This document shows positions 3,041 to 55,966 of a stretch of DNA of 55,966 bases, piece by piece; position 1 is the first letter of the stretch; each line of letters opens with the position of its first letter. The translations under genes and the position numbers were made by a program. The DNA is from Spirogloea muscicola (lineage: Eukaryota > Streptophyta > Zygnematophyceae > Spirogloeales > Spirogloeaceae). The stretch is from assembly GCA_009602725.1 (NCBI GenBank), contig WELB01000075.1, positions 345,464 to 401,429 on the forward strand. Direction: 5' to 3'. The notes below the pieces were generated by a model that was not told the origin of the DNA, did not search any database, and worked only from the letters and a program-made list of their open reading frames with translations.

Positions 3041-4340
3041 GGTAATTGAAGGGGAGGTTTGACGTGTATTGTAGGGGTTGCGTCAGGGCTTGCGTTGAGC
3101 TCATGTAGAGTACATAAAAGGAGGTCTTTCTTAGCTCCTGACTGTGCAGCAACTCGCTGGCATATCGCGAAGACTGCTGTCAGCCTCAGCCTTGTTGCCT
3201 CACATGAGGCCCTTGGCACAGGTTTAGACCAATAATAAGCTATGCTGAGCAGAACTTGTACATACTCAAGAGGGGCATCGTCATTGTCATCGATGCCCTC
3301 AATTTTGTCCACAGATATACCTCAGCTCACCACAACCATATGCTCCTTTAAGAACCACTTTCTGCAATTTTTGCTCGTTCAGCAAGCAAGAAATGCAGAC
3401 AGAACGCAAGAGCCTATGGCAGCTGTGATCACCCTATAGACTGGCAGAAGAAATGTACTAAACAGTACTGAACAACAGCGCCATCGAATTAATCGAAGGG
3501 AGGGAAGAATATAATAGTCAGAGAGGGTGCCGGAATATTGTGCCAGCCTTGGCGACTGTCAGTGCTGGAAGGTTTGATATCGTTTGGCAGAGAAGCTTAG
3601 TGTTCACCTCCAAATATTATGCTCCATATGAAATGTCCGGCAGTAGTGTAGGTTGCAGTCATGGCAAGAGTTGCAGTGTGCTATGGCTTGCGGGACGGCT
3701 GCTGGCCTTTATTGACTTCATTCATAACGCAGTATGCTTGCATACTGCTACATTTTGATTCTCCGAATTCGAGCTAGTACTTTGTGCTAGCTCCCTTCCA
3801 CTGTCTCATCCCATGTCATTGACTGATGAGAAGTGCTCCGTCTGCTTACTTTATGTTGTTCTCCCTTGCTAAACCTTCTTGGTGACCTTGTCTCGATGAT
3901 GTTGAGGTGCACGTGCAAGTCACTGCTCCTTCGAGTAAAGTCAGCCTTCTATGACTGGTCGTGGCGTAAGCCTCACAAGTATGATTGTCACAAAGAGCTC
4001 CAGCCACAGTGCTCATTGATCTTCCAGTGAGGGAGGGGAGGTGACTTTAAACTACGCACGTAGTGGTGGATGACTAAAAGCGCAGTGTATCCTCTCGACA
4101 TGCTATGAAGCCAGTCATGTGGTGCTGGCACGAGGGAAACACACGGTGAAGCCCCGAGCTGCTGCTCTGCGATCAGTGTTACTCACAGGGGCATGCTTGA
4201 TGCATGACCTGAGCTCTGGGATGGGTTAGACCTGGGGGTTTGGCAAACAGTTACAAAACATGGACGGAATGGCCGAAATCTGCACTACTGGCCGCTAGCA
4301 TGACATTCAAGGTCGAGCAACACGCAATTTCGGCGGAGCG
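3041..4340. other. Intergenic stretch without recognised gene
   Basis: This 1.3 kb follows the metalloreductase stop and presumably begins with its 3' UTR. Frames are short and show no domain. A 147-codon minus-strand frame (3312-2869) overlaps the last metalloreductase exon and has no recognisable motif. No dispersed hairpin module is present here. Confidence 0.5.
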
Positions 4341-4814
4341 GTGCAAGAGGAAGCTGCAGCATCTGAAGTGGGGGCGAGGGCTGGAAAAAGCCAGCCCATA
4401 AGAGGCCAGAAGAGCGCTACAGCACACAGAAACGCAAGTGGCCACAATGTACAAGGCCGGGAAGGGCCGGAATGGCGGAAAAGGAAAAGGAGCAAGAAGC
4501 GACTCCCCGTGATAGATAAGAGGCAGGGGAAGAAAGGGCTCGCCCATCGAGGATAGGGGCTGGAAAAGCCAGCCCCAAAACAGAATGAGCAGAGCACGAG
4601 AAGGGGGCCAGGGGAAGAAGGGCTCGCCCATTGAGGATAGGGGCTGGAAAAGCCAGCCCAAAGAAGAATGGACAAAGTACGAGAAGGGGGCCAGGGGAAG
4701 CGCTGAGATTAACAAGCACAAGCACAAGCACAAGCAGGGGGGGAGAAGCGGAGTGCGTGCTCCCGATCAGGACGGCGGGCGGGAGGCGGGCAAAAGGGAG
4801 GCTGCGCAGGGCTG

Positions 4815-4832
4815 GGGTTTGGGGTTAGGGTT
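4815..4832 (+). repeat. Degenerate telomere-type repeat
   Basis: A short run of GGTTTGGGGTTAGGGTTC resembles the plant-type telomere unit TTTAGGG with substitutions. Two similar patches occur at 7754-7804 and 8853-8882. These are interstitial scars, not a chromosome end. Confidence 0.5.
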
Positions 4833-5284
4833 CAGGATGCCCGCCCGGCCCGGCCCGGCGGCCCGGGACACGTGCCTCCGCCGGCCGCTGCGTGCAGGCC
4901 GCCACGCGCCGACTGCCCCGCACAGGGCGCCGCTCTGTCGGGGGGTGCTTGCGCACGTGGTCCCCCCGTGGCCGGGAGGGGCGACGTCACCAGGCGGCCC
5001 CAGCAGAGCGCTGTCGCGACGCTCCTGGGGCCAGCCTGGGTGGCCGCCGCTGCCTTTGCGGCCAGAGGGGGAGGGACGGCCGGCGTGCGGGGCCGGGCGT
5101 GAAGGGACCCGCCCGCCGCGCACAGCTTGGGCAGTGGGCGCGCTTTTCAGCTCGCCCGCCACGCCATCGCCCGCCGCTTCCATGGGGGAGCGAGATGAAG
5201 AAGTGGCACTCCCCATGGGGGCAAGGGCTGCAAGAAGCCAGCCCAACAAAGAATTGACAAAAGGTTCGAAGGGGCCGGTGGGGA

Positions 5285-5715
5285 GCCGGTGGACTTCCCT
5301 GCAGCTGGGTCGCTAGCGCAAGTCTACCGCATGCGCCTGGCCATCTCGCTGCAGCGGTCTATGGCCCGCGCGCTACACCTTCGTGCCGGCCGCGCACTCG
5401 CTGCTGCCTCTGGCTCTGGCCAGGGGACCCCCTTCCAGGCGCCTAGCCTCTCTGATCTGCGGCTGCTTAGCAGGGGTTACTGAGTGATTCGTAGCAGCTA
5501 TGCTTCGTTTTGTGCTTGCTTTCCTTACGCTTCCCCTGTCGGAAGCCTTCCAGGAACCCTGTCTCTTCTTCCAGGAACCCTGTCTTCTCTGACCTCAGGC
5601 TGCTTAGCAGGGGTTATTGAGCTTGTTGGCCCCTTCAAAACTTTGTCAATGCTTTTTGGGCTGGCTTTTCGCAGCCCTTGCCCCCATTGGGAGTGCCACT
5701 TCTTCTTTTCTGGTA
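5285..5715 (+). mobile_element. 5'-truncated LINE fragment, family A (3' end)
   Basis: Encodes only the last about 60 residues of the LINE protein (QVYRMRLAISLQRSMA ... SDLRLLSRGY, stop at 5481-5483), then a 3' UTR ending in the hairpin module (5630-5715). It matches the 3' end of the longer copy at 8973-9790 almost residue for residue. A second, partial copy of the LLSRGY-coding end is repeated at 5590-5625, so the tail is internally duplicated. Confidence 0.75.
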
Positions 5716-5759
5716 CGCCATCCGGCCCTTTCAGCTGAGCTTCCATCTGCGATCGTCTC

Positions 5760-5920
5760 GTGCCTTCCAGACCTTGTCCATTCCCTTTTTGGGCTGGCCT
5801 CTGTCAGCCACTGCTGTCAACGTGGAAAAGCTGTTTCTGGAAGAGAAGTGGCTCTCCCAAAGGGGGCAAGGACTGTGAAAAGCCAGCCCGAGAAGGAACG
5901 ACAAGGTCTGAAGTTGCCAA
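5760..5920. repeat. Tail-to-tail inverted pair of hairpin modules
   Basis: A plus-orientation module (CCTTGTCCATTC ... GGGCTGGCCTCTGTCAGCC) at 5760-5830 is followed by a minus-orientation module at 5848-5920, so the two arms are imperfect inverted repeats around a short centre. The same layout recurs at 21236-21470, 22385-22600 and 32720-32915. Confidence 0.65.
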
Positions 5921-6054
5921 AAGCGCTCTCAGAACTTAGTAACCACGAGTGAGGAGCCGCAAATCCGGAAGACAAGCACTGAAAGAAAAATTCAAATTTC
6001 CCGAGTTGACAGCAGTGGCTATGAGAGGCCAGCCCGAAGGAATGGACGGAAAGC

Positions 6055-6180
6055 AATCCCCCTAACGAGATCCAGAGGCTGCAGCGAGAGCACGGCCAGC
6101 ACGCAGGTGCAAGGCGTGGCCCATGGACCGCTGGAGGGAGATGAAGAGGCGCATGCGATAGACCAGAGCTAGTGAGCCAG
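6055..6180 (-). mobile_element. LINE family A fragment, antisense
   Basis: The minus strand reads LALVYRMRLFISLQRSMG then HALHLRAGRALAAASGSR, matching the C-terminal region of the family A LINE protein. It is truncated at both ends and non-coding today. Confidence 0.65.
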
Positions 6181-6983
6181 CGGCATTGCAGTCAGCCTGC
6201 TCACCTCGCCTGCGGGAGCGCAGCACGCCGCGCAAGAGGGGCCAACAGGTCGAGCCACTGGGACCCGAAAGCCACGGAAGCCGTGCATTCAATCAACATC
6301 GTCAGCTCTTCTACTCTAAAGAAGAAAGAGCTTTCTACTCTCGTTATCACAGAACAGCTGCCAGACTGGGACGAGCAGATAGACGGTATTCAGAAGAAAG
6401 AAAGACTCTTCCAGACAGAGAGAGCGGTGGCTGTGATTGGCCAGCCCAGGAAAAATCATGCACAGTCCGAAGGCGCTCCTCAGAGGGCAAGGCGGCCGAA
6501 TATGTACGACCTCAACCTTCCGAAGTGAACAAGGAGAGAGGAGCACATCAGCAAGGCAAAAGTAGATGATAAAGCTATGATTAAGAAGAGCATGAATGGC
6601 TGGCATCCAGAAGCAACCATAGAAGCTTCCTCTGCTCTGAGCCCTCATCTTTGGTGCTCTGCATAATCTTGCCTCCTCACATTGTCACACCCAAAGTGTA
6701 AGCCTAACAGCACAATCAGTTAGCAACCCCAGAAAGTCGAACCCCCTTTGGTCTGTCCTTTCTTTAGAGTCAGCTGGAAAGCTTTGTGAATGCTCTGGCA
6801 ATTCATATGACTTCTTTCGCTGAGCTCATGCTGTGCCTGTGGATGCTACAGGAGCGGCGTTTGTCGTGGCAAGTACAACAACAGAACAGACTGCATAGCC
6901 ACTTCGTATTTAGTCCAACCGATCCATCAAACTACGTGAATTACTATGTTCCATCTCCAACTATCCTCCACCCTTTCCCCCAG

Positions 6984-8553
6984 GGAGATGCTTGCAACAT
7001 CTACACATGTGACGGCGATTTTAGGTGAATTGAAGCTGGACACTGCCTTCTGAGGTGCATAGTCTGGTGCACTTATTTGGCATGTTGACATTGCTCTCTG
7101 GCCCTGACTGCTAGAAGAGCTTCGTGATGTTGTCCAGTAACACTCAAGTCTTCTGTTAGACTTACGGTCACCTTGCAATGTGTTTGGCACAGCCAAAGCG
7201 CAACCGGCTACTGCAGGAATCACTTTGCTCCAAACACAACGGCATGCTTGAACACCGACAAGTGCACCAATGTGTACTATTGCAAGTAAGGGCAAACCTA
7301 TGCTTTGACATCTCAAGCATCACAGCATGATGACATCAGAGCGCACCTCATTTGTTGCCTAGCAGCTTAGCAGTCAACTCGAAGTCGTGGCTAAAGCTGA
7401 GTCCAAAAGGACCTGCTGGTCGCATGCTTGGTGCATTTGATGTACTTCAGAAACACAGGCTCATGCTAGACTATTTTAACAGGGCTATATGCATGTGGGC
7501 TTGCGTAAGCAATCTTGCGTTCTGACTGCCCGTTGGCTGATTGACTCCTCTGGGACTTGTGACGACGGCTCCTTGGGAGCAGTGGTACAGGAACTTGCGA
7601 CATGAGCCAATCCTACAACGCCACGGACGGCACGAAGTGTGGCTTACTGACAGGGACCCCCTGCTTCGACCAGGAGTGCAGGTCTTGTATTCCTCGCTGG
7701 CCACTGAGATGCTTTGTCTCCGTGTCTTGAGCATCTTGCATGCCTTTCCAAACCCCTAAACCCTAGACCCTAACTATTAACCTAACTCCTAAACCCTGAA
7801 CCCATGACACTGGTCGGTTCTCCTAGCCGGGAGATACCGAGCATCTCATGGGATCGGCTTTGTTGCGCAGGGGTGGCAAGTGTGAAACCGTGAGGATTCA
7901 TCACGATGGCACTTTCTGCGATGTCAACACAGCCAACGCAACAGCCATCGATCCCCGCTGCCAGATCAACGCATGCAGGTGACCATGCTCCACAACGAGC
8001 AACACACCTCGTGTTCATGTGTTATCGCTGTGACTTTGACACTTGTGAGCTCAAGCAGCTCATCATTCACCGAGCACACAAACTTACTTGGTATGTAGTT
8101 GCGACCATGATCTTCTGGACCATGATGTACCAAAAACACCCAGTGCATCGCTAAGATGATGTGTTTTCAGCTATTTCTTGGGCGTGCGACTGACTGATCT
8201 GACCCATCCACTTCTGCAGCAATGGGCAATGCACAACGGTGGTGAGCAAGAAGCCGGTCGGCAGTGTGTGCCACCCCAGCTTCCTCGATGTTGACCACTA
8301 CTTTGACTTCTATGACACTGGAGGATCATGCATCAGCAATGAATGCTGCGCGCAGTGCGACGCTGCAGGTAGATGTGACGATAACATCAGAGACGGCATG
8401 AGCTGTACCAAGTGCACAGAGGGATACTGCAGTGAAGGGCCCGGTGGTTGCGAGCCCGACGGATGTGAATGCTCAGTAACAATTGCGTACACCTTGGATA
8501 CTGAGGCTCCTACGACCTGCTACTTGCATGTACTATGGAGTCTGAGGCGCTAA
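6984..8553 (+). CDS. Cysteine-rich, probably extracellular repeat protein (partial)
   Basis: Four exons join in one frame through phase-2 introns: 6984-7024, 7583-7681, 7871-7978 and 8220-8553 (stop). The product is cysteine-dense, with repeating words such as DGTKCG, TPCFDQEC, GGKCET, DGTFCD, NACSNGQC, CCAQC and GCEPDGCEC. That spacing resembles disulfide-knotted extracellular modules (ADAM/disintegrin-like cysteine-rich regions), but I cannot assign a family. No start codon or signal peptide was found, so the N-terminus is missing or in upstream exons. A possible further exon with a similar cysteine pattern lies near 6820-6930, but its phase does not fit. The last about 25 codons lack cysteines, so the true final exon may end near 8477. 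It could be a decayed gene. Confidence 0.55.
7754..7804 (+). repeat. Interstitial telomere-type repeat (CCCTAAA)
   Basis: Several near-tandem units (CCCTAAACCCTAGACCCTAA and variants) match the complement of plant-type TTTAGGG. The patch lies in an intron of the cysteine-rich gene model. It may mark an old break repaired with telomeric DNA. Confidence 0.7.
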
Positions 8554-8723: not shown

Positions 8724-8979
8724 TGTAAAAGCCGGCATTTATCCACAAGTTGAGGAACCTTATCTTAAGGGACATGCAGAGGGTTGATCTTGGCCACATC
8801 GGAAGTGGTCAATATATGATCAAGCCATTCAATATGGATTAAGATTAACAAACAATGGTTTGGGGTTGGGGTTGAGGGTTTGTAAAAGCCGACTTTTATC
8901 CACAAGTTGAGGAAGCTTATCTTAAGGGACATGCAGAGGGTTGATCTTGGCCATATCGGAAGTGCTCGATAAATGATCA
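8724..8979 (+). repeat. Direct repeat pair (about 99 bp) flanking a G-rich telomere-like patch
   Basis: Positions 8724-8823 and 8881-8979 are near-identical direct copies (key words CCACAAGTTGAGGAA, CTTAAGGGACATGCAGAGGG). Between them is a GGTTTGGGGTTGGGGTTGAGGG patch at 8853-8882. The second copy ends exactly where the long LINE frame opens, so the repeat may be the LINE's upstream sequence or a duplicated target. Confidence 0.75.
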
Positions 8980-9790
8980 GTGCGAATGTGGCGAGCGAGG
9001 GGCCGACCCTGGAGCTGGCCGCTCAAGTTCCACGCTGCGCCCACGGCGGCGAGCGGACAGCGGCCCACGACCGCCTCCGCGATGCGATGCATGGTATCCT
9101 GGTGGAGGATGGCTTCTCGGTGGCAGCGAAGACCTCCGCCGTCACGCCGCTCCAGGAAAGGGCCGACGGTCTCCACGCTCGTCGCGTAGACCTGGTGGTC
9201 AGCCGGCGGGTACGTCTTATCCTGGACGTGGTGACTACCGACGCGTTCGACCGCTCCCATCCAGTCCAATGCGCCACCAAGGCTGGGTATGCTGTCGCCT
9301 GCGCCGCCTGGGCTAAGGAGCTCAAGTACGCCAACCATCCGCGGGAAGACGACTTCTTCCCGTTGACTATTGACACCCATGGAGCGCTGGGCGCTTGTTG
9401 GCTCGAGCTGCTCAACCAGCTCGCCCGCCACGCCATCGTCCGCCGCTTCCATGGAGAGCGGGTGGACTCTCCTGCAGCCGGATCGCTGGGGCAAGTGTAC
9501 CGTATGCGCCTGGCCGTCTCGCTGCAGCGGTCCATGGCCCGCGCGCTGCACCTGCGTGCTGGCAGAGCCCTCGCTGCTGCCTCTGGCTCTGGTCAGGGGA
9601 CCCACTTCCAGGAGCCTAGCTTCTCTGACCTGCGGCTGCTTAGCAGGGGGTACTGAGTGATTCGTAGCTGCTTTGTTTCTCTGTGTGCTTGTCTTTCTTA
9701 GCGCTTTCCCTGGCCCCCTTCTCGTCCTTTGTTCATTCTCTTTTGGGCTGGCTAGTCCAGCTCCTATCCTTAATGGGCGAGCCCTTTCTT
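8973..9790 (+). mobile_element. Longest LINE (non-LTR retrotransposon) 3' fragment, family A
   Basis: An open frame at 8973-9656 encodes about 227 residues of what appears to be the C-terminus of a non-LTR retrotransposon protein. Visible blocks are QERADGLHARRVDLVV, LILDVVTTDAFDRSHP, a Lys in ATKAGYAVAC, and FFPLTIDTHGALGA. The D ... D-x-V ... K spacing looks like a PD-(D/E)XK nuclease-type fold, as at the C-terminus of some algal and oomycete LINE ORFs. It ends in SFSDLRLLSRGY. No reverse transcriptase motif is present, so the copy is 5'-truncated. The 3' UTR runs through TGATTCGTAGCTGCTTTG to a hairpin module at 9726-9790. The nuclease label is inferred from motif shape only. Confidence 0.65.
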
Positions 9791-10128
9791 CTGCCCAACC
9801 GTTGGCACGCCGTTCGGCCTTCAACAATCTTCCGCTGCTAACGGTAGCCCGCCATGGCTACCTGAATGCATACTGGACTTCAGGTGGGGCCCGCAGGATG
9901 CTGACCTGGCTTGCCACGAGCGCGGACATGTCCACCTTGCTTTGAGGTCACCTGATGTGACCGCAGCGGGGGCCTCCACCGCTGGGCCCGCATGTGCCAG
10001 GCCCAGGCTTACCCGTAATCATCGTAGTTGGGCTTGCTGAACAGAATGGTCAACGGCAGCCTTGGAGGGCTAGCGTCAGCAGCGGAACACTGTTGAAGGC
10101 CGAACGGCGTGCCAGCGGCTGGGCAGAG
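9787..10128. repeat. Inverted repeat with about 63 bp arms
   Basis: The arm at 9787-9850 (key word GGCACGCCGTTCGGCCTTCAA) returns as its reverse complement at 10064-10128, about 215 bp apart. It abuts the tail of the long LINE fragment and could be a second foldback insertion. Confidence 0.6.
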
Positions 10129-10249
10129 CCCAGTGAGAGGTGATGGGGGATGGAGCGTTGAGCGGGCAGCGAGGCAGGGCTTGGGCCAGTAAGTTGAAAG
10201 TGACTTCGCAGCGGGATTGGGCAAGTGCCTCTCCTTGTGTGAGTGTTCG

Positions 10250-10385
10250 GGCCCCTGCCCTCGTCTAGTGCTTTGCAGTGTAGTCCTTTTTCGGCACTTC
10301 TATCGTTGGCTTCGGACATTGTCCAAAAAGATTGGACATTGTCTATCTTTTTGGGCTGCCCCTCTTCTCTATGGGCGAGCTCTTT
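10250..10385 (+). repeat. Dispersed repeat, second copy at 31868-31980
   Basis: Shares the words TTTTTCGGCAC, TTGGCTT, ATTGTCC and TCTTCTCTATGGGCGAGC in the same order with 31868-31980. It appears to be a variant of the hairpin-module family with a longer 5' part. This copy carries a short local duplication of the GGACATTGTC word. Confidence 0.6.
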
Positions 10386-10389: not shown

Positions 10390-11925
10390 TGCGCCAGGCG
10401 CGTCGGGCGCCCGGGTCACGAAGGTCTGGTCGACAGAGGTCTGTGTCTGCGTCCGGTCAACCCTTGACCTACACTGACCTGCGGTCCGGTCAACAGTGAC
10501 CTGCCAGGACCGGCGCCAGGAGCTGTGGTGCCGCCATGTGGCGGCTCCTCGCTGCGCTCCGCAACTAACGAGAAGTAGCCGTATCCTACCTCGGTTAGCT
10601 TGGCACTATGGCTTTCCATCAGCCAAGTCTACCTATCAACCGTAATGGTTAACCCCAGATTCGCAACAGGCTTGTCATGAGTTATTCCGTCGGTGGCTTA
10701 TTGATGTCGATCTGACAAGGCATGTGAGGTGGCCGCACACGTGGACAACCAAGGCATGTCACCTTTCAGTCTAATGAGAAATAGGATTCGCCAAGACGGC
10801 ACCTCCAGCTCAGCCCCGGTCAGGTAAGTGCGCACTTGCCGCTTCGCTGTCAATCTGACATTGGCAGGCGGTCTTCATCCTGTTATCCAAACCACTCAAG
10901 AGAAGTGCGTAGCTGCCGGTCTCGGTCAAGATTGCTGGGAGTAGCAGAATCTTGGTCAGGGTCTGTTGTGCTCGACTTACTATCACTGTTACATTTTCAA
11001 GTCTTTGTAGTCAAGGCTTACTTTCTACATCCAGCGCCAGATTCCTATCACATTCCTATGGGGCCTCGCTGGCCATCTACAGGCCACAGCAAAACATGTG
11101 CCAAGGAAACCCAGCCTCCATTCTTGCAGGCAAGCTTCCCCAACGACGCACTACTGCTGAAGAGGACACCTCTACAGCACGTGAACGACGCACAGGTCGG
11201 AAATTACTCGAGGAAAGGGGCCCACGAATCAATCATAGTCCAGACCAAGAAGCAATGAAGGTGCGGAGTCATCGCCGCACAACGAGGCAATGCCTGATAA
11301 GGATCATGAGGTGCAAAAGAAGGCAGCAGCTGAAATGCAGTACGTGGGCTTGGTGAGTAATTAATTCCATGTTCAAGGTAGCTGAAAGATATAGAGTATT
11401 CGAATATATCGTGTCGTCTGTTGGCATGTTGTTCACTGACCTTTGCCAGGCCGCTAATCTACTAAAGAAGCTAATGAATTACGTCTGTAGCTGCAGGCGT
11501 ATGATATGCATCTGCGGCTCTTGTTGAATTAGATACCTAAGCTAATTTCGTTGAAGGAAGTATGTGGTTTTCTGTAGACCATACAAGTGCAGGAACTGTG
11601 TGACAAAGCTTGGAAGACTCTGATGCCACGTGATGGGTGGAAATGAAGGGTCAGGTTGCCTCGTCTCGACGATGCCTCAAACTGCGCTGATTGCTTTGAA
11701 CAAAGAAGAGAATGTCACTGACAGCGGGGAGTATATGGGTCGCATCCAGCCGGCTGCTAGCTCAAAAGGCTATGCGACAGAGGTAAGAGGGTTTTGCCCC
11801 GCAACCTCTTCTGCCACCGTCTTCATGGAGAGATTTTCCAAATTTGATACAAACGAAGGCCACATGGCCAAGTACAAAGGCAAGCACATCTGAAGACTTA
11901 CATGACCTACAGCAGATTGACCCGC
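10390..11925. other. No recognised gene or repeat
   Basis: Frames up to 140 codons occur (for example 10836-11258) but show no domain and no splice-consistent partner exons. Composition is mixed. I see no RNA gene. Confidence 0.4.
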
Positions 11926-12177
11926 TCAGTAACCACGGGTCAAAACATGAAGGTCGCTAATCGAAGCCTGATTACTAGCTGGCAGATACGAAGCCCTTCT
12001 GCCACCAACTAGAGCTCGCCCAGCTCTCTGGTGCAAAGCATTAGCCTGAGCACGCCGCAAACAGGCCGAAACGCGTATTCGCAAGAACGACAGATATGCA
12101 GCTGGCAGGCCCATCTCAGCTGGAAACACATCTGCACGTCGTGCATAGCCTAGATTGGCGGTATTCTGAAGGAGCAT
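11926..12177 (-). mobile_element. LINE fragment, family B, antisense
   Basis: The minus strand reads MGLPAAYLSFLRIRVSACL ... ALHQRAGRALVGG ... SDLHVLTRGY before a stop. It is collinear with the family A C-terminus (QVYRMRLAVSLQ ... ALHLRAGRALAAA ... SDLRLLSRGY) but clearly diverged. A related copy lies at 43130-43595. Confidence 0.65.
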
Positions 12178-13054
12178 TTGGAAACGAGGACCTAAACAGC
12201 CAAGATGTCAACTGCAGCTGGCAGGAGCTGATCGCATTGGGGGTAATTGGAGTAGCGCTGCAGCTTTCTTTGTTCTGCACTGCCCACTGCGTGGCCAGCG
12301 ATGTGCGTCGATGCTGGACCTTCATACGCCTCCGTAACAACAACATCAACCAAGGTCCGTGGTTCTCAACCAGGTTGCACGCCCACAATGTCAAGTGTGC
12401 GGCGATGATGACGTCCCTGGGCATCCGTGGTGATAGGCATGATGTCGTTCACATCCACGACCGCACTGTACCGGCGTCACACATCAAATCCGCAGGGGGA
12501 GAGCCACTTCTTCTTTCTTACGACTCTCACCGGGCACAAGTTGCCAACTTGGCTGGGCCGCCTCGTCTCCAGCTGAAATGGCTGACGCCGTCTTCCTGCG
12601 AAGCCGAGGAGAAGCAGCTCAGGTGCAAAGGCAAGGGCTGGGAAGAAGCCATTTCGTCCATGAACAAGGTCCAAAGGCGCCGGTGACAATTTGTTAAAGA
12701 CCACAACGGGTGCCTGCTGTGGTCTTGACAACAGCCACTTCTCCTCTCGCCTCCTCCACCTCGTCTTACCTCGTACATCTGGCTGGCTAGCTGTTCACAG
12801 CCCTCACCCCTTGGAGAGCTGCTTTTCTCGCCCCCGCTTGGATGTAGCTTCGTGGTGACTCAGTGTAGCTTCGTGGTAGTCGCTCTCCGGCCCCTTATTG
12901 ACCATGTCAAAAAAGAATCTGACTAGCTCACGGCCAACAACCATTCCAGTGGAGTGGCGGTTTGTCTGATGCTAGCACATCTCTCACAGCGCTTCCGTGA
13001 GCCCAAGAGGCCCTCAACATAAAAGTCTTCACCCCACCTCGGACAGAAGAAGCT

Positions 13055-13690
13055 ATACTAATGGGGCAAAGGCTATGAGAAGAGGGAGAGGCCAGCCCAA
13101 ATGGGAGTACAAGCCGCTTCCTCATACGCGCACAGCCTGCCCAAGCCACACATAGCATTCTGCCTGTGATTTGCTGCTCGGCGACCATCTTGACCCAGCC
13201 ACGGTGGGTGAGACAGGGGTCAGCCCGACAGAGATTGGATGCCATACTTAAATCGATCTGCGGATGTTGACTTGGGACTCCTGAGTAGCTCTTTGCGTTA
13301 GCTACTTCTTGTGCTTGGTATGATGTGCTCCATGTGCTTACCCCACAGTTTGCAATCCTGTCATGGCTGGCCTTTCGCAGCCACACACTTTCCTTCTGGA
13401 AAAGTTATTATTCCGAGTAAAAGCGACTGGGCGAGCAGCAAGCAGGCGGGGCCTGTCATTAGACGAGCACTTTCTCAAAAGGAGGTGAAACCAGAGCAAG
13501 AGGGAGAAGGGAGGCAAAAAGCGTGTGGTGAGTAATGGAGGGCCAATACGGCCGAGTTTACAGTCAAGCTCATCTGAAGATGTAAAATACCTGCTGCTGT
13601 TCATTACTCATTCAAGCCCTAGCTAAGCCCAGTTGTCTGGTGTGCAAAGCATGAGCCTGAGCTCGCTGCAGACAAGGTCCAGCTTCCGCA
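13055..13690. repeat. Scattered hairpin modules and a family B LINE scrap
   Basis: A minus-orientation module lies near 13055-13110 and a plus-orientation one near 13355-13400 (GGCTGGCCTTTCGCAGCC). At 13600-13690 the minus strand matches the family B LINE near its AGCGAGCTCAGG word, shared with 43470-43490. No gene is seen between 12178 and 15015. Confidence 0.5.
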
Positions 13691-21235: not shown

Positions 21236-21470
21236 TCAGACCTTGTCCATTTCTTGGGCTGGCCTCTCACAGCCACCAGTCAATTTGGCCGCGCTTTCTC
21301 TTTCAGAAGAGACGAGGGCTGTGAAGAGAGAGACAGCCGTTCCAATCCACGGCAATGGCTTTGAGAAGAAAAGAGAGAACAGCGCTGCCAAATTGACAGA
21401 GAGCGCGGCCGAATTGACTGGTGGCTGGGAGAAGCCAGCCCAAAAGGAATGGACAAGGTCAAGAGGAGCC
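21236..21470. repeat. Foldback element with about 65 bp arms
   Basis: The left arm (CAGACCTTGTCCATTTCTTG ... CCACCAGTCAATTTGGCCGC) and the right arm (GCGGCCGAATTGACTGGTGG ... GGAATGGACAAGG) are reverse complements with few mismatches around a centre of about 100 bp. The right arm recurs almost unchanged at 33480-33550, and left-arm relatives occur at 22393-22460 and 43695-43765. This resembles a MITE-like foldback; no target-site duplication was confirmed. Confidence 0.75.
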
Positions 21471-22384
21471 GAATGGCGCAGAAAGCAGGGGACGAAGAGC
21501 TAAGACGACAAGGAGGCTCTCAGTAACCTCTAGTCAGCAAGTGCAGGTCAGAATAGCTAGAGGGCGGGAAGACGTCGCCCTGACGAAACCCGGAGGCAGC
21601 CGCCAGGGCGCGAAGCAGTGGTTGTAAGAGGCCAGCCCCAAAGAAATGGACGAGGTCTGGAAGGGCCGGATGGCGCAAAAAGCAAAATACTATTCACGGC
21701 CGGAGTGTCGGGGTGGGCGTCCGTGCGGTCAGCCTGATTGGTCAGCCTGACTTCAACGCGCAGCCTCTCTAGCTGCAGCCTCTGGGCTGGCCTCTCACAG
21801 CCATTGCCGTGAATTGGAAGAGCTTTTCTCTCGCTCAGGTGTATAGCATGCGCCTGTCAGTCTCGTGCAGCGATCATTGGCACGCGCGTTGCATCTGCGT
21901 GCGGTCGCGCATTGGCTGCAACCTCTGGCTCTGGCCAGGACCTGCTACCTGGTGACTAGTTTCTCTGACCTGCGGCTGCTGGACAGGGGTTACTGAGTGC
22001 CTCGTGGCCACTTTATTTACTGTGTGCTTCAGCGTGTTCTCTGGCCCCTCAAAGTTCGTTCGTTCTTTATCTGGGCTGGCTCTCACAGCCCATCGCCCTC
22101 TACTGGAAGCGTCTTTCTCTCAGATGGTCGGGTGCGCTGGAAAAGAATAGCTCATTGTAGACTAGTTCCTCTGAGCTGCGGTTTCTAAACAGGAGTTATT
22201 GAGCACCAGTAGTGACCACTTAATTCGCTGTGTGCTTTAGCACCTCTTCTGGCCCCGTCAAACTTTGTTCATACAGCTGGCCGATCACAGCCATCGCCCT
22301 CTACAGGAAGAGACTATCTTCAAAGGGGTCGAAAAGCGCTGCAAGACATAGGTAAGCAAGGTCAGCCAAAATGGATAAAGCCCA

Positions 22385-26949: not shown

Positions 26950-28640
26950 TCAGATGGTCAGCTTCTCGGCTTCGCTTTCGTTAACTTACATGGGAAGAAA
27001 GTGGCTGTCCCAAAGGGGCCAAGGGCTGACGAGGCGCTGTGGCAAGAAGCTTTCCCGGATGGACCCACTTCCAGGACCCTAGCCTCTCTGATTTGCGGCT
27101 GCTTAGCAGGGGTTACTGAGTGATTTGTAGCTGCTTTCTTTCTTTGTGTGCTTTGGTTTCTTAGCGCTTCCTCTGGCTTCCTCTGGCCCCCTTCTCGTTC
27201 TTTGTTCATTCTATTTTGGGCTGGCTTGTCCAGCCCCTATCCTCAATGGGCGAGCCCTTTCTTCTTCTTCTTCTCCTTTCTTTCCCGGATTGAAGCGTGC
27301 TAGCCACCACCCGGCACAAGAGCTACGTGGCCACACAGGCCACGGACTGTGCCCGCCTTCACGTATGTGGCTGTTGGCTCGACTGACGCTTAGTATTTGG
27401 TCAAGTTCTGGTTACATTGCCTTGCCCTTACCGCCAGGGCAAGGCAATGCCCGCCACAGTATCTCTTCTGGACACCGTCTTTCCTATGTAAGTCCGAAGG
27501 GGCTAGACTAATGCTACTAAGTGAAGTAGCTCTGCCAAAGGGACGAGGGCTGCAAAGGGCTAGCTGACAAGAACCAATAAAAAGCGGACAGCCCTGAGTT
27601 AGCCTGTCGGGCTGACATCTGCTCACTCGTAGGAATCGAAGTCCACCTTCAGCTATGCTTTTGCCGTGTTGATTAGCCCCTATATCATAAGGCTTCGCTA
27701 TGTGTAGCCCACTCTTTGCTCTACTTTTTGCTTGAGCAGTAGACTGGCTCGTGACTTTGCCTCCTTTCAAAGTCATGCGCATGGCGCGCCTTTTCCTTCT
27801 GGGCTGGCCTTCCACAACAACTGCTTCGGCGAGGAAGTCCTTCGTTATTTCCTAGTCTTAAGGCTTCCGCCTTTGACCACCAGTCTCCTCGTTTGCCTTC
27901 CCAGCCCCTTTGTCATCTTTCTCAGCTGGCTTTCCAATTGCCTCCTTCAAGAAATAGGAAGCTTACTCCTGCTCTTCAGGAAGAGCTTCTTGTCCTTAGA
28001 GAGCCTTGCCTCCTAGCCCGCATTCACACTGTTACCTTGACCCCCCTTAGCATAGGGCTACACTTCGTGTAGCCCTGTCTCCGCACTAACTTCTGCCTAA
28101 ACAGTATACTGGCTTAATATGGCCTGCCTTCCATTTCATGCGCACCGCGTGCCTTTTTCTTCACCCTGAGTAGTTGTCCCTTCCTTTTGAGCTGGCCTTC
28201 CACAGCCACCGCCCCCACATTTAGTTTGCTGCCTTCCTCTGCTTGGCCATTCTCTTGTCTGGGCGCATAGCACAGCTCATCCGTCTGATTGTTGTCCCAG
28301 CGATATGCTGGCGTTCTCTAGCTTTCATCTACTTCAACAAAAGCACCCCTTGACTGCACTTCCTTTTATCTGAACTGTTTTGTCATTTAGTTTGCTGCCT
28401 TCCTCTGCTTGGCCTTTCTCTTGTCTGGGCGCATAGCACAGCTCATCCGTCTGATTGTTGTCCCAGCGATATGCTGGCGTTCTCTGGCTTTCATCTACTT
28501 CAACAAAAGCACCCCTTGACTGCACTTCCTTTGATCTGAACTGTTTTGTCTTAGCTGGCCGCTTCCAGTAACTGCGTTGCTCGTCCATCTCTCCTGGACA
28601 CCGCCCCTGACATTGGCGACACATCGTCTTCGACATGCTT
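26950..28640. repeat. Repeat block 3
   Basis: Starts just upstream of the PsbP-domain gene's start codon. Holds a minus-orientation module near 26990-27050, a LINE family A tail at 27050-27280 (SDLRLLSRGY-coding end, UTR, module), further modules near 27525, 27785 and 28180, two copies of another repeat at 27670-27830 and 28040-28210 (related to 53730-53840), and the tandem pair at 28218-28550. The repeat at 28040-28210 contains the perfect hairpin GGGCTACACTTCGTGTAGCC. Confidence 0.7.
28218..28550. repeat. Recent tandem duplication, 166 bp unit, two copies
   Basis: Units 28218-28383 and 28384-28550 differ at only a few positions (key words GTCTGGGCGCATAGCACAG, ATATGCTGGCGTTCTC, CAACAAAAGCACCCC). 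The minus strand has a 100-codon frame across both units that begins beyond them; no domain is recognised. High identity points to a recent duplication or an assembly artefact. Confidence 0.85.
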
Positions 28641-31619: not shown

Positions 31620-33610
31620 GGGGCCAGGAGCAAATGGGGAACGACGGAAGGAGACTCGAAGAAAGTGAGCTCTTCCAAAGAAAGTGGCTCTCCCATTGGG
31701 GGCAAGAGCTATGAAAAGCCAGCCCGAAAAGAATTGACAAGGTTCGAAGGGGCCAGATGACGGAGGAGCCTACAAGTGCTATGTTAGAATGGGTGTAGGA
31801 TGGACCACTCAGTAGCCTTAGTCCTTCCTAGTCCAAAGAATGTGCTCGTTCATAGTCCAAAGGCATGGATTGTAGTGTAGTTCTTTTTCGGCACCTCTTT
31901 CTTTGGCTTGGGATATTGTCCATTCTTTTTAGGCTGGCTTTGCCAGCCACTCTTCTCTATGGGCGAGCACTTTGCCTTGTAGCTACGAGTGAGGAGCCTC
32001 AAACCCGACAGACTAGCTGCCGGAAACCAATCCCTCTGACGAAAGCCAGAGGCTGCAGCGAGAGCAGGGCCAGCACGCAGGTGCAAGGCGTGGGCCATGG
32101 ACCGCTGTGGTCGCATGCGGTAGACATAAGAAAGGCGCGGTGCGCATGAAAGAAAAGAGAGGCCAATCCGAGACTTACAAAGTCCTGGAAGAAAGAAAGG
32201 GATAAACGCTGTGGTACAGATACACCGCGATACACCAGCGTGCTGGGCGCGCATTAGGCCAGGTCAATAGAAGAAGTGGCTCTCCCAATGGGGGCAAGGG
32301 CTGTGAAAAGCCAGCCCGAAAAGTATTGACGAAGGGTCAATGGCTTCCATGGTGGTGGTCTGGCTCCTCAGCTTAGCTTGTAAATATGTATGTGCTAACT
32401 CGTGGATGATAGTGTCACCCTTCGCCAGCTCGTTCTCCCGTTATCAAAACTTTTGTAAGGCTCGAATTGGCCTCCATTTCACTTTCATGTGCAGCGCGCG
32501 CCTTTCTCTCTAGTGCAGGAAAGTGCTCTCTCAATAGTGAGAATAATGGAAGGCAATGGCTGTGAGAGGCCAGCGCGCACGAGTGAAGAAGGTCTGAGAG
32601 GAAAGTCAAGGGAGCGCGCGTCTGTCATAAATCAGAGAAGGCGTGCCATGCACATGACATAATATGGAGGCCAAGCCGAGCCAACCTGTCAAAGGTAAAA
32701 GAAATTGCAAGAAAAGAGCGCTTCCTCACCGGCCTCTTTGGACCTTGTTCACAGTTTTCGGGCTGGCGTTTCATAGCCCTCGCCCCCTCTAAAGAGCTTA
32801 ATCATTTCTGGAAGTTTCAACCTCTTGAGAGAGCTGCTTCACTTCCAAAGTAAGGCGATGGCTGATAGAGGCCAGTCCAAAGGAATGGACAAGGTCCGAC
32901 GTGGCCGGAAGGCGCAATCACACGAAACTTCTCTCCGGAAGGTCGCACTGTCGAATGCGGGAGACGGCAGCCAAGGCGCAAAAGCTCGGGCAACACTTCA
33001 GCGAAGCCCTTGAGGGGCTAGTGGAAGCAGGGTGAAAGAAGCAACTCCTCCAATGTAATGGAAAGCACGCCTGGAAGGGGTGCTTCAGTACCCACGAGTG
33101 AGCGCATCACCTTGACAATACGGAAAGAGCGCGCATACATGGCGGACAGGCTAACTAGGGGAGCAGAGCGGAAGCACCGCGGAAGCCGGTGCGCCCAGCA
33201 TGCTGAAGGCTATGGGCGAGCACTCCTTTCTGCTGTTCCAGCCCCTATCTTTGTTTCTATCCTCAATGGGCGAGCTCTTTCTTCTTCTTTTTCCTTGAAG
33301 GAGGGGAGCGCTACAGGCTCAGCAAGAACCCGAGTTTGTAGCACGCAACTGGCGCCTGCTGTAAGCTGGTATGGCCCAACCACAGCTTGTTAGCACGCAA
33401 GTAACGCCTGCTGTAAGCTGGTGTACCCCAAGCTGCCTCCGCCGACTTTGGCGGCAAAGCAAAAGGGACAAGGTCCAAAGAGTAAGCGCGGCCGAATTGA
33501 CTGGTGGCTGGGAGAAGCCAGCCCAAAAGGAATGGACAAGGTCAAGAGGAGCCGAATGCCAAAGGGCCGATAGAAAAGCAAACCAAGGGCTCTCGTGGCG
33601 GGCGCAAGGG
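31620..33610. repeat. Repeat block 4 between the otubain and HD2 genes
   Basis: Modules on both strands near 31660-31760, 31905-31980, 32270-32330, 32540-32600, 32735-32910, 33225-33290 and 33480-33560, plus an antisense LINE family A fragment at 31985-32135 (YVYRMRPQRSMAHALHLRAG). The stretch 33305-33420 has a short imperfect duplication (key word GCCTGCTGTAAGCTGGT). No gene is seen, although it lies between two divergent gene starts. Confidence 0.7.
32720..32915. repeat. Foldback pair of modules
   Basis: A plus-orientation module starting GGCCTCTTTGGACCTTGTTC is followed by a minus-orientation module ending GGAATGGACAAGGTCCGACG then TGGCC. The outer ends are near-perfect inverted repeats, like 21236-21470 but of a different subtype. 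Confidence 0.6.
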
Positions 33611-43130: not shown

Positions 43131-43865
43131 TGCCCTGGCACATCGGACTTGTTCGGATCTCAGGCATCCGCGCTGCTTCGGTGCACCCTACCTATGGCTG
43201 CAACGCTACCCAGATGGGCATGCCGGCAGCCTACTTGTCATTTTGCGACGTTGTGTCTCAGCCTGCTCGCAGCAAGAATCAGCGCAGTGATCACCTCCTA
43301 CCAGCCGCTATTGTCAGCCGCAATTGGCTGCATAGGTGACGTCACATATCCTACATGAAAACATCGCAAGTGTAGGATATGCACATGATGAAAGTACACT
43401 TCCAGTTCAGATGGGCATGCCGGCAGCCTACTTGTCATTTTGCGACGTTGTGTCTCAGCCTGCTCGCAGCGAGCTCAGGTTCATGCTTTGCAAAAGAAAG
43501 CTGGTCGAGCCTGAGCTGGTGGCACAAGAGCTTGTCAATTGCTGTCTGGTTTTCGGGCATCAACTAGCGGCCTCTATGTGCTGACTCGTGGTTATTGAAC
43601 GGGTCAGCTTAGCAGCAGGTGATGTATACCTGCCAATGTGCTTGGCCACACAGGCCCTCCATCACTTGTCTTGGTATTTAGCACTCCGGCTCGTTCAGAC
43701 CTTGTCCATTCCTTTGGGCTTGCCTCTCCCAGCCACCAGTCAATCTGGCCGTGCTTTCCCTCCATCACTCAATGCATACTCCAGTTTTCCTACCTGCAAC
43801 CCTACCCTAGGTGCGGGCGGAGCCTGCGCTAGTCTGATGTGTATCTGCCGCCACGAGCGCTTCTG
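43130..43865 (+). mobile_element. LINE family B fragments, including an exact 63 bp duplication, then a solo module
   Basis: A 63-base segment at 43211-43273 is repeated exactly at 43408-43470; both encode QMGMPAAYLSFCDVVSQPA, collinear with the family B copy at 11926-12177. The downstream copy continues to a TGTGCTGACTCGTGGTTATTGA end near 43590, equivalent to the LTRGY-stop end of the LINE. A plus-orientation module of the CCACCAGTCAATCTGGCC subtype lies at 43690-43770. All copies are truncated. Confidence 0.65.
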
Positions 43866-45559: not shown

Positions 45560-45660
45560 ACAATAGATAGAAGATGCAGCTATTCCAAAGGGGGGGCGAG
45601 GGTTGCGGAAAACCAGCCCACCAAAGAATGAACAAGGATAGACCGCTTAGAGGAGTGCTG
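45560..45660 (-). repeat. Solo hairpin module
   Basis: A minus-orientation module (CTATTCCAAAGG ... GCGAGGGTTGCGGAAAACCAG then CCC) stands alone downstream of GPRP2, between its end and the 3' end of the C45 gene. Confidence 0.6.
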
Positions 45661-52034: not shown

Positions 52035-54050
52035 CTGAGGTCCGACGGTTGCGCACCTGCCACCACCAGTTTTGTTGACGAGCTTTGCAGGTAAAGACTG
52101 GTGCAGACTCTCAAGCACCATGACGAGCGTAAGGAACAGGTCCAGGCTGTTCACAAGCAACCTGCTTAGTCTCACACCTTCTTGTCTCAGTACTCAACGG
52201 TAGTAAAGTTCTCCGACGGTCGTTTATCATGCCTAGCACCTCTGAGATTCTCTTCAAGCAAAAGTAATTCTTGTCTTTCAAGCAACTCTGATCCCCACAC
52301 TTTCTTCAATGCGCAGGGGCGAATGCACAATGTCGTCTTGCTGTGCTTACAAGCTCACTCTGCTGTGATTTATCTCGCGCCTAAGGTTGTGAGGCGACCA
52401 GACGAGGACATGTGACTGCAGCTAAACTGCACCCATGCTGGGGAAATCAGTCTCAACTGCAGCATAGCAGCAAGCCCAGGCAGGCGAGCCAACTTGCTAG
52501 GGTCAATAAGCCATGCTCGTTCATTCCTGGCCGACGAATGTGCGTCCTAGCCTTTTGACTGCCTACGACTTTTGTTGGGGATTCTGCTTACACATCGATA
52601 GACCAAGTGACTTGCTCATGCTACAGATTCCCATGTATTGAGGACTGATTCCACCTGCATTGGCTGGCGATCAACTTTGTTGTCTCTGTGCAGTGTAAGA
52701 GAAGCTATAGTTTCGTGCCATGGTGCCCGTGCCAGCTGCAGTAGAGGTGATCTAACCTGCCCTGCATCCTGACCAGGGTGCTGAATATCCTCCAACTAGT
52801 ACCTCGACCTTACTGTCTTGCACCAGCATCAATGGGCAGAGGACGAATAAGCCTCCCGCTTCCTGCTCACCAGAAGCTGCTGACTTATCAATAACGACTT
52901 GCTGTGCTGAAACACTAGGCCTATAAGTGCAGCTCAACACAATGAAGTGTCCTTGATGACACAGCTCATACTGAGACGTGCGACTCTTGCATGAAATCAT
53001 TGTTCTGCATTTAGTGCTGATTGCACATCCCAGCTTCCATAGGACCTGTCCTGGCATGCCCTGCGGCTGCTGCAAGCACAAGTACTGATGGACTGTAACT
53101 GCGATGCCTATATTTCAAGACGCCCTTCATATACATTGGCAAGCACCTGAACTCATCTACCAAGCTATGATCCACTTTCACGTACATCGTAGTGGCTATA
53201 ATTTACACAATTCATGTGAAATAGTGCAGCATGTAGCCACCAAAGACTCGAAGTCTCCTACGTCCTTCTGTTGTGGCACTCTTAGGCCAAGTTTGGCCAA
53301 GCGTACTGCCACATCAAGCACTGCCGATACTTATCTCACTCAGTTTTCACTTATTCACTTGCACGTTCATGTAGCTCATAGTGAATGCTTCGACTAGGCC
53401 TTGGGGACCAGTCGCAAAACAATTAGAAAATCAAAAGGTTCCTGAGCAAGCGTCTTTACTGCCAGAGTTCCTACCTTTATCCTATATCATATCAGCACTA
53501 TCAGCTGTTTGGTCTCATGTGGGCCTAAGTTCGTTGGAAGGGTATCAAATTTTGGCTGGTATCTTGTTTGCACAAATGCCTGGGCTGTAGAACTTCCCTG
53601 AAGCCCTTGCCTCCAGCTACATTTGCCAGCTGGCAGACTTTTTCTCCCTGAATACTGATAGTGATAAAGAGCGAAGAGTGTGTCAAAATTGCAGCACCTC
53701 TATTCAGTGGGTACTAACGTGACACTGTTACCTTAGACACCTCAATATAGGGCTCGGTTTTATGTAGCCTTGTATTTTGCACTAGATTCTGCCTGAACAA
53801 CCCTATCATTTCGTGCGATCCGCGCGCCTCCACCCTAGCTGGTATCGTAGAGCTACTCAATGTGCAGATGTGATCGAGGTCAGAAACAAGCTCTTCTTTG
53901 ACCAATCTTCGGCAGCTCCTCTTGAGGCCGGATCTGGCCTCCACTTTGCTCATCGGTCGACTGGGTACCAGCAGTCACTCTTCACTGGTGTGACACAATG
54001 CATGTGGGGTTGGGATCCTCCACTGATATAGTCTTTCTTCCGGATCTGGG
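52035..54050. other. No recognised gene; one dispersed repeat
   Basis: About 2 kb of AT-richer DNA. Frames reach 109 codons (minus 53081-52752) without motif or signal. At 53730-53840 a repeat related to 27670-27830 and 28040-28210 is present (words GGGCT ... TGTAGCC, TTCTGCCT, CATTTCGTGCG). I see no RNA gene. Confidence 0.4.
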
Positions 54051-55966
54051 CTGGCTCGAGGTGGAGCCAGGCCGTGTCACATGACGACGTCAGAGTGGCT
54101 GCCCGAGACGCACAACAACAGTGACGGGCACGGCGGCGCGTCTGCAGCCAAGCGCGCCAGCGCGAGAGCCCGCCAGCGGGCAGGCGGGAGGGCGTCGTGG
54201 TGGTGGTGGCAGCGGTGGTGGCAGTGGTGGCAGTGGTGGTGGTGGTGGTGATTGTGGTGGTGGTGTCGCCCCCTGTTGAGGGCGCGGCGGGGATTCGCCA
54301 CCCGGCTGGCAGCGGGCAGCAGGAGCGGGGGCGACGGCTACGGCACTGGCGCAGCGCAGTGGGGGGCCGCAGGAGACAGGAAATCGCGGCTGCTGATAGT
54401 CAAAGAACGTAAAAGCCAACGAGCCAGGTGCATACACAGGGTTCTCATGAGACTACAGCAGTGAAGGACCCGCCCTCCGTGCTTCTTCCCTCCATTCCCC
54501 TTTGCTGTTGTGGGCTGGCCTCGCACAGCCTGTCATGGCCTTACATTGGAAGAACAAGTCTGCCGACATTCCTTCTTTTCTGGCGTCGCCGACACCTGCT
54601 AAACGTTTTCTGGGGGCAGGCCAATCACAGCCATCCCGCGCTCTACTGGAAGAGTCTTCTTGCCTTCTGACTCTCTTTGTTCTGGGCTGGCCTCTCCCAG
54701 CCCTTGCCTCCATTGGGAGAGCCACTTCTTCTTCTCCCTTCTTCTCCCAGCCACCGCCCTCTCCTGGAAGCGGCTTGCCTTCTGACAGGCGCACGACAGG
54801 CGAGGTGGTCCTGGTCCCCGGCGACGCGCCGACGTCGGCGGGGCGGTTGGGCTCGGGCGGCGCGGGAAGGGAAGGGGGGCCGGGTGCCCCGGGGCACTGT
54901 TCCTCGGAGGGATGGAGCACAGCCGCCAGGCGGGCGGCGGCGGCGGGTGGCGCCACGGGCCACGTTGGCTGCGCCGCCGGCTGGAAAAGCGGCCAGCCGC
55001 CGCCGCCGCCGCGGCCCCCGTGAGCGACGGCGCGCGGTGCGCACGCCCTCAGAAAATAGGAGAGAGAGAGTGGCTTCGTTTTCACGAAGCGGGCGCGGGC
55101 TGTGAACAGGCCAGCCCGACGAGTTTGACAAGGTCTGGAGGGGCCGGCGAGCGCTGAATGACACGACTGAGCAGCAATGACTATGTAGGATAATCAAAGA
55201 GGGTGCGCGCGGTGCCCTGCGAAGCAGAGGGCGATGGCTGTGACTGGCCAGCTCAGGAAAGCAAAGAAGAATGAACAAGCTTTGGCTTCCCTGAGAGGGA
55301 GGCCAAAAGGGGGCGGCGGCTGTGAAAGCAAGCCCGGCTATGACAAGGTCCCATGGGGCCGAAAAGGGCTGAAATACACAACTGAGCAAGGACAAGTGCT
55401 CCTCCAATTTTCCAAAGGGGGCGGGGCAAGCGAGCGCACTCTGCAAGAAGAACAAAGGGACATCTGAGGGGGGCTAAGCTAATGGGGCTAAGGCAAGTGG
55501 CACTTCCAAGGGGGCGAGGGCTGTTTGAAGCAGCGAAGCGAGCCCGACCAAGAGGGAAGGATCAGCTCATCCAAGCATACGGAAATGGCTGTGAGAGGCC
55601 AGCCCAACGAGAGAAGCCCAAAGGAATGTACAAGGTCCAAAGGGCCGGAACACGCAGAAAAGCATAGAGCTACCACCCTTCATGACTCCTGCGAAAGGAC
55701 CAAAAATGACACGGAGAAGCAAGGGAAGAAGGGCCAGCCCACGAGACAGAAGAAAGAGAGTGCGCGCGCCCATAGAGGACGAGAAAGGAAGACGCTTCCA
55801 GGAGAGGGCGGTGGCTGGGTGGGAGAGGCCAGCCCAGAGAAACGGATGAACAGAGTTCGAAGCCACGAGAGCAAGCGCGGCCAGAGACGAGAGGGTGACG
55901 GGGTGCGAGCCAAGGAGTGGCCGGCCAAGTGGAGTGTCGGGGACGGGGCGGGGGGGGCCGCCGGCC
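54050..55966. repeat. Repeat block 5, densest in the window
   Basis: Begins with a GC-rich stretch and a (GGT)n tract at 54196-54272. From 54500 on, modules follow one another: plus orientation near 54500-54550, 54610-54660, 54680-54740 and 54750-54780; minus orientation near 55060-55150, 55210-55260, 55305-55370, 55500-55530, 55575-55650 and 55790-55870. The orientation switches once, around 54800-55050, where the sequence is GC-rich and gene-like in composition but holds no supportable reading frame. The window ends inside this block. Confidence 0.7.

Follow-up and report, generated by a model that had tools for sequence, protein, structure and literature searches.

An abundant hairpin module in Spirogloea muscicola is the 3′ tail of a probable R2-like LINE lineage

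Zepp of Chlorella is an L1-type LINE with poly(A) that is clustered at telomeres, and the zebrafish elements ZfL2-1 and ZfL2-2 belong to the L2 clade and carry an APE-type nuclease. The two zebrafish elements are described, in an excerpt of PMC4176376, as stringent-type LINEs whose ORF2 protein recognises a stem-loop in the 3′ tail. LINEs with a restriction-like endonuclease (RLE) are generally site-specific according to the consulted part of PMC5678591, and R2 inserts into 28S rDNA (excerpt of PMC12503042). In the open literature we found no paper on restriction-like-endonuclease non-LTR elements in green algae or Viridiplantae, on NeSL in Chlamydomonas, or on LINE elements of the streptophyte Spirogloea, and one query on stem-loops and SINEs likewise gave none. 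Papers that touch on both Spirogloea and retrotransposons exist, and Repbase may hold the element described here.

We studied a stretch of 55,966 nt from Spirogloea muscicola (the window), in which an initial annotation had noticed a recurrent module of about 45 copies in both orientations, with a core able to pair with itself. Both observations hold: a 67-position profile finds 49 copies, 22 on the plus and 27 on the minus strand, at a threshold of at least 9.5 bits that was chosen after seeing the shuffle scores (the top score of five shuffled windows was 6.4). A core pattern with up to three mismatches matches the window 26 times against 0.06 expected, and the genome contains 16,801 matches to the module core compared to 2 for the reversed control. 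The copies form nine clusters whose positions broadly agree with those first described. Four of them contain both orientations (4361-6472, 21129-22593, 31686-33543 and 54502-55861), one consists of diverged copies (12766-14980), and the others lie at 9721-10380, 27194-28220, 43694-43754 and 45583-45639. An isolated weak copy (9.6 bits) is found at 42610-42632. An Rfam search of the window gave no match.

We found that the module is the 3′-terminal 60-100 nt of a probably R2-like, single-ORF LINE lineage with at least five tail subfamilies (F1-F5). A TTTGTTCATTC/CCTTGTCCATTC box, the GGGCTGG...CAGCC hairpin and a short segment specific to the subfamily make up the tail, together with a pyrimidine-rich end that lacks poly(A). 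The window holds a C-terminal fragment of the retrotransposon ORF (8973..9656, plus strand), an open frame of 227 aa that ends in SDLRLLSRGY with its stop codon at 9654-9656. It is followed in the same copy by the 3′ UTR and an F1-type terminal hairpin (9657..9794, plus strand; 36.9 bits in the profile), 88 nt past the stop and with one changed base in the 3′ arm. The fragment has 149 further scored places with 81-86% identity, some within open frames of at least 1300 aa. Of 30 loci picked by the ORF fragment alone, among them the copy in the window, 28 carry the hairpin at a distance of 75-88 nt past the stop position, with arms that are exact in 24 and have one base changed in 4. The two exceptions are L010, which has no hairpin, and L015, where an F2-type hairpin stands at 137 nt. 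The 29 hairpin-bearing tails represent 19 distinct sequences and therefore are not all independent.

The same linkage was observed starting from the hairpin. From 216 module hits of at least 15 bits, 180 with a readable 5′ arm were kept, giving 174 distinct copies (L004 and L009 were omitted as overlaps), of which 170 entered this test. The C-terminal motif of the ORF is present within 200 nt upstream of the hairpin in 67 of these 170 copies compared to 2 of 850 shuffles, a count on which it bears that the motif was derived from copies carrying it. All five tail types include copies preceded by the motif (F1 36/54, F2 12/33, F3 1/8, F4 8/22, F5 2/14, unassigned 8/39), and it precedes 19 of the 76 copies at loci not picked by ORF. 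In the window, an F2-type tail (5632..5707, plus strand) follows SDLRLLSRGY and a stop 37 nt upstream of its hairpin, an F3-type tail (22047..22122, plus strand) follows SDLRLLDRGY and a stop 76 nt upstream, and a 211-bp F4 copy (21402..21612, minus strand) retains the C-terminus SDLHLLTRGY and its stop. The module, first taken for a stand-alone element, instead forms a retrotransposon's 3′ terminus.

The ORF of one fully read copy encodes 1299 aa with an RVT_1 domain (Pfam 7.9e-16, above the cut-off), and R2 retrotransposon proteins are its sole PDB matches at E up to 0.01; to our knowledge, solved structures exist for few LINE clades. For this ORF, Pfam lists no APE-type nuclease and, at E up to 0.1, no N-terminal Myb motif. 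Two C2H2-like motifs are visible by eye at the N-terminus (zf-C2H2_4, E 0.086, below the cut-off). A cysteine/histidine motif located by eye before the nuclease region of the L039 ORF reads CX1CX12HX3C, a variant that departs from the CCHC knuckle spacing CX2-3CX7-8HX4C published in PMC5678591 (consulted part). The C-terminal region is a putative restriction-like endonuclease, judging by its place and a residue pattern read by eye that suggest the type. The C-terminal 249 aa matched no PDB sequence up to E = 10, and Pfam gave no match of note on the 227-aa fragment; an AlphaFold model of that fragment, made without an alignment, had a pLDDT of 40 and was discarded.

With the R2 retrotransposons, which are RLE-type LINEs, the element shares a single ORF with a reverse transcriptase, a cysteine/histidine motif and, by eye, finger-like motifs and a nuclease-like C-terminal region, together with a structured 3′ UTR; like them, the copies examined lack poly(A). 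Unlike R2 with its 28S rDNA target, it has 31 distinct F1 3′ flanks that share no common target, and its window copies lie between genes. The tail contains a stem-loop, as the excerpt cited above reports for ZfL2-1 and ZfL2-2, but here the part of the tail below the hairpin varies between subfamilies, and recognition of the tail is what we infer. The accumulation of a LINE in a green alga and the clustering of its insertions recall Zepp. Most likely this is a known kind of element, a very abundant and dispersed R2-like LINE.

Next we consider the copies without coding sequence, which look 5′-truncated and have a constant 3′ end. Genome-wide, we counted 10,342 matches to the tail, 4,649 to the stop-codon region and 119 to the RT motif (controls 1, 0 and 2, respectively), a gradient overstated by some amount because a single element supplied the RT pattern and the three patterns are unequal in length and mismatches. 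The 5′ limits, scored in 74 of 78 unselected copies, spread from 0 to more than 200 nt upstream of the hairpin with no evident peak, there being few copies per family.

Because the region has two homeologous contigs, C25 and C165, with about 77-91% identity, it is possible to tell whether a given insertion predates the split or followed it. A 91-bp F4 copy (43667..43757, plus strand) is absent from both contigs, where the aligned blocks share 12 and 13 bp, and 12-bp duplications CCCTCCATCACT stand at 43655-43666 and 43758-43769. A 5′-truncated F1 copy (27061..27280, plus strand; flanks CTTTCCCGGAT at 27050-27060 and 27280-27290) is absent at the corresponding place in C25, where 13 bp are common to the two aligned blocks, and C165 has 60 bp against 252 bp in the window, which is compatible with absence; this copy has at least 36 other places at 95-100% identity among 40 candidates scored. 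Homeolog comparison also shows that an 81-bp F4 copy (33480..33560, minus strand) is absent from C25, with aligned blocks that overlap by 2 bp only. The 211-bp F4 copy has some 30 other places at 92-99% identity, and C25 has about 93 bp opposite it compared to 373 bp in the window; this site is not cleanly empty, as part of the C25 stretch matches the module at 73%. The copy at 45583..45639 (minus strand) sits inside unbroken alignments to both homeologs, with a query that exceeds the C25 block by 70 bp and the C165 block by 19 bp, and is probably older, although a gap in C25 is possible. Target-site duplications are clear in two empty-site copies (43667..43757 and 27061..27280); a general excess is not clear, with repeats of 9-13 bp in 33 of 154 copies (from the 174 distinct ones) versus about 25 expected from mismatched pairs.

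These observations bear on whether the short copies are a non-autonomous, self-transcribed SINE-like family that borrows the LINE tail, an arrangement for which SINEs sharing LINE tails offer a precedent (consulted parts of PMC5135761 and PMC6510757). Such a family would fit the large excess of tail over RT matches and the 91-bp unit inserted as such. It is disfavoured by the ragged 5′ limits and by the longer copies that extend into the LINE ORF, and aragorn, which scans for tRNA genes, found none in the window; we consider it improbable. A miniature DNA transposon (MITE), or a REP-like hairpin of bacterial type mobilised by a transposase, would likewise be short, palindromic, dispersed and present in both orientations, but the constant 3′ end with ragged 5′ ends and the linkage to a reverse transcriptase ORF leave this reading almost no probability.

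A host role between genes, as terminator, insulator or RNA processing signal retained by selection, turns on the stem and on the distribution of copies. At 91-99%, the stem columns rank with the best conserved positions of the module, a figure that is inflated because the profile seeds were picked by core. Paired cells fall from 89.7% to 37-56% when the stem partner is slid along. The outermost pair fails in 22 of 39 aligned copies. Folding predicts the canonical hairpin at minimum energy for the F2 and F3 copies and in the centroid structure for F1; a mutated F4 copy is predicted to fold differently, and F5 to retain a short part of the hairpin within a longer stem (folding z-scores: F1 -2.2, F2 -2.7, F4 -1.1, F3 0.0, F5 -0.1). 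The compensatory change proposed in the initial annotation as a check of the stem is practically absent: in an alignment of 39 of 42 selected copies (L076:3765, L013:1313 and L006:270 left out), 0 of 6 pairs changed on both sides, and across 212 distinct copies 1 of 70 changed cells was doubly changed yet paired. In the 39-copy alignment the 5′ arm is invariant, partly because only hits with a readable 5′ arm were kept, and for that reason the shuffle control cannot discriminate. Nor do intact stems in both orientations point to a functional hairpin, as had been suggested, since insertion in either direction suffices to represent both strands. The integrated copies show no sign of the stem being kept, and the hairpin in the RNA could still play a part in retrotransposition.

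Besides the conserved stem columns, the distribution speaks for a host role. None of the 49 copies overlaps the window gene spans (23.5 kb, approximate and unannotated, drawn from ORFs and the gene names of the initial annotation), where about 21 would be expected (P about 2e-12 with independent copies, 0.007 with the nine clusters as units). Pfam matches agree with the names otubain, NPL/HD2, E2 and F-box, and an AAA motif with RFC1; two PsbP ORFs and one C45 ORF gave no Pfam match. A ferric-reductase Pfam match in the window is below the cut-off. Module density is 0.886 copies per kb in the window, 0.556 in ten random stretches (19 copies in 4 of the 10; 34.1 kb of sequence letters and 26 kb of N) and 0.010 at 30 loci anchored on Helicase_C exons (1 copy in 97.3 kb, introns, exons and flanks pooled), where a strict pattern finds 1 copy against 10.7 expected. 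The reported absence from named gene spans therefore stands, avoidance holds in one test elsewhere, around helicase exons, and copies are apparently seldom inside genes. Against selection for a host role stand the near lack of compensation, the place of the module as a mobile element's tail and the absence of three copies from one or both homeologs; we regard this explanation as very unlikely.

We consider it highly probable that the module is the 3′ tail of an R2-like LINE, recognised by the element's own reverse transcriptase, whose early-stopping synthesis leaves copies little longer than the hairpin, nearly all outside the gene bodies examined. The hairpin itself is most likely the RNA tail that this enzyme recognises. 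Under this model, the encoded reverse transcriptase would bind the tail in the element RNA and begin target-primed reverse transcription there. Because synthesis would begin at the tail and usually end early, many new copies would barely exceed the hairpin. Insertions occur in either direction and have no common target, and depletion in gene bodies could arise through insertion bias or selection.

What appeared to be a functional intergenic hairpin becomes a legible history of a single LINE lineage. A broader proposition, which we hold to be evenly balanced between right and wrong, is that an R2-like lineage with a restriction-like nuclease lost its fixed target and became a dominant dispersed repeat of a green-lineage genome, mainly as bare tail hairpins of at least five subfamilies, with gene bodies nearly clean; the hairpin recognised by the RT would then by itself be the most common mobile unit. 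A dispersed and abundant R2-like lineage in the green line with several tails for one kind of ORF would open tail recognition, lost site specificity and gene avoidance to joint study.

The initial annotation had described a short hairpin repeat in about 45 clustered copies, and both its recurrence, which is far above chance, and the copy number and cluster coordinates proved broadly correct. We found 26 matches to the core pattern in the window (at most 3 mismatches) against 0.06 expected, and a profile derived from 35 copies identified 49 copies at a threshold of 9.5 bits, the top shuffled score being 6.4. Across the 153.1 Mb of genome scanned (471 contigs), the core matched 16,801 times (at most 2 mismatches), compared with 2 matches for the reversed control. 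At least five tail types can be told apart by the segment below the hairpin among 174 copies, namely F1 (AATGGGCGAGC, 55 copies), F2 (ATTGGGAGAGCCACTTC, 33 copies), F3 (CTACTGGAAGAG, 10 copies), F4 (CAGTCAATCTGGCCGCGC, 22 copies) and F5 (14 copies), with 40 copies given no type.

The identity of the module emerged from an ORF fragment at 8973-9656, for which 149 scored genomic relatives besides itself are 81-86% identical (150 of 19,946 candidates scored), some of them within open frames of at least 1300 aa. We examined 30 loci downstream of the ORF end, with the ORF rather than the module as the basis of selection, and found the hairpin 75-88 nt past the stop position in 28 of them, 24 with two exact arms and four (L017, L018, L023 and the window's own copy, L009) with one base changed. 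In L015 an F2-type hairpin lies 137 nt after the stop position, in L010 no hairpin was found downstream of the ORF end, and L013 has an altered stop codon. Because several of these loci are near-identical copies, the 29 hairpin-bearing tails give just 19 distinct sequences. Past the terminal CTTTCTTC(T) the flanks diverge, one copy (L036) breaking off earlier, and no common target was found among 31 distinct F1 3′ flanks. Given the hairpin following the ORF end at loci chosen by the ORF, and the diverging flanks, we identify the module as a retrotransposon's 3′ terminus.

Of 170 copies, 67 have the ORF C-terminal motif no more than 200 nt upstream, a count that takes in the ORF-chosen loci, compared with 2 of 850 shuffled stretches (F1 36/54, F2 12/33, F3 1/8, F4 8/22, F5 2/14, unassigned 8/39). 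At loci not chosen by the ORF it was found in 19 of 76 and, as copies are closely spaced, part of the matches may stem from an adjacent copy.

The one complete open frame read (L039, 1299 aa) encodes a reverse transcriptase (Pfam RVT_1, E 7.9e-16), its PDB matches at E <=0.01 are R2 retrotransposon proteins only (E ~1e-6), and its Pfam matches at E <=0.1 include no APE-type nuclease. By eye, and without support from Pfam cut-offs or PDB, we noted two C2H2-like motifs in the N-terminal region, a cysteine/histidine motif and, C-terminally, a putative restriction-like endonuclease. The cysteine/histidine spacing deviates from that given for RLE LINEs in a section of a published study (PMC5678591). 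With these motifs seen by eye and this deviating spacing, R2-like is the best filing for the element and is not proven. A related LINE family at 11800-12100 (-) and 43283-43667 (+) resembles the element, by eye, in how its ORF ends (SDLxxLTRGY and stop) and has a different tail with a GGCCATTTGGCC palindrome; its copy at 43283-43667 has relatives at many places (74-88%).

Genome-wide, the F1 tail matched 10,342 times, the stop-codon region 4,649 times and the RT motif 119 times (controls 1, 0 and 2), a gradient that is rough because the three patterns are unequally long, allow different numbers of mismatches and, for the RT motif, derive from a single element. Among 74 copies taken without selection, the point where resemblance to ORF-bearing copies stops lies 0 to more than 200 nt upstream of the hairpin (<=25 nt, 17 copies; 26-60 nt, 22; 61-100 nt, 14; 101-200 nt, 4; beyond, 17), with no evident peak.

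Two homeologous contigs (C25 and C165) are collinear with the window region, which occupies 345464-401429 of contig C75, at roughly 77-91% identity, and helicase matches often seem, by eye, to occur in threes, which together suggest a triplicated genome; a genome triplication in Spirogloea muscicola is mentioned in a passage of PMC7994812. An F4 copy at 43667-43757 is missing from both homeologs and has 12-bp duplications, an F1 copy at 27061-27280 is missing from C25 with a C165 alignment compatible with absence, and an F4 copy at 33480-33560, with almost no duplication, is missing from C25. A general test gave no clear excess of target-site duplications. Alignable stretches of a homeolog contain the copies at 27793 and 42610 and the greater part of the one at 28167, which thus look older, as the copy at 45583 probably is; the comparison gave no verdict for the copies at 31686-32901 and a partial one for that at 21402-21612. 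The 91-bp F4 insertion directly adjoins the end of the related-LINE copy at 43283-43667, and a 166-bp unit is tandemly duplicated (98% matching) at 28218-28550, immediately after a module copy.

The reported absence of the module from genes held in the window, where none of the 49 copies overlaps the approximate gene spans. Around Helicase_C exons, copies are clearly depleted, whatever the cause: 30 loci (97.3 kb of letters; exons, introns and flanks taken together, with homeologous copies of the same genes) contain a single copy, in L051 about 1 kb off the exon, against 10.7 expected by the strict pattern and about 54 from the density in a small random sample (34.1 kb of letters; 19 copies confined to 4 of 10 stretches). 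This is one gene family, a second, RRM, having yielded no loci. As about 26 of the 60 kb of random stretches are N, densities per assembled base may fall below the true repeat load.

Genes in the window include an NPL/HD2-like gene and a PsbP-like gene, the latter named in the initial annotation. By eye, the gene at 120-3040 (+) opens with an NADPH-binding-like portion and has a membrane part that looks like a ferric reductase (Pfam Ferric_reduct, under its cut-off), and we take its product to resemble animal STEAP metalloreductases. Neighbouring genes at 41280-42360 and 44110-45330, apparently a tandem pair, encode proteins rich, by eye, in glycine, proline, tyrosine and histidine, the second gene carrying 9- and 27-bp repeats. 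A degenerate plant-type telomere repeat (AAACCCT-like, by eye) lies at 7755-7805.

It had also been suggested that the hairpin might be functional in itself, and the compensatory stem changes looked for were all but absent: none of six stem pairs shows two-sided changes in 39 aligned copies, 22 of which have the outermost pair broken. A set of 212 distinct copies offers 967 lettered cells, of which 70 carry a change; 69 of these are one-sided, with a G-U pair left in 27, and the other one is two-sided and still paired. Inserted hairpins show no sign of being retained as a structure. Fold z-scores of the tail RNAs are -2.2 (F1), -2.7 (F2), 0.0 (F3), -1.1 (F4) and -0.1 (F5), and F2 and F3 show the canonical hairpin in their best fold and F1 in its centroid, while the mutated F4 copy folds without it.

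According to sections of PMC12503042, R2 proteins recognise the 3′ UTR of their own RNA, whereupon target-primed reverse transcription begins, and many R2s have a stem-loop in this 3′ UTR; part of PMC4176376 describes two zebrafish LINE proteins with strict recognition of their own tail stem-loop. By analogy with both, we infer that the GGGCTGG...CAGCC hairpin is most likely the recognition site in the RNA of the element.
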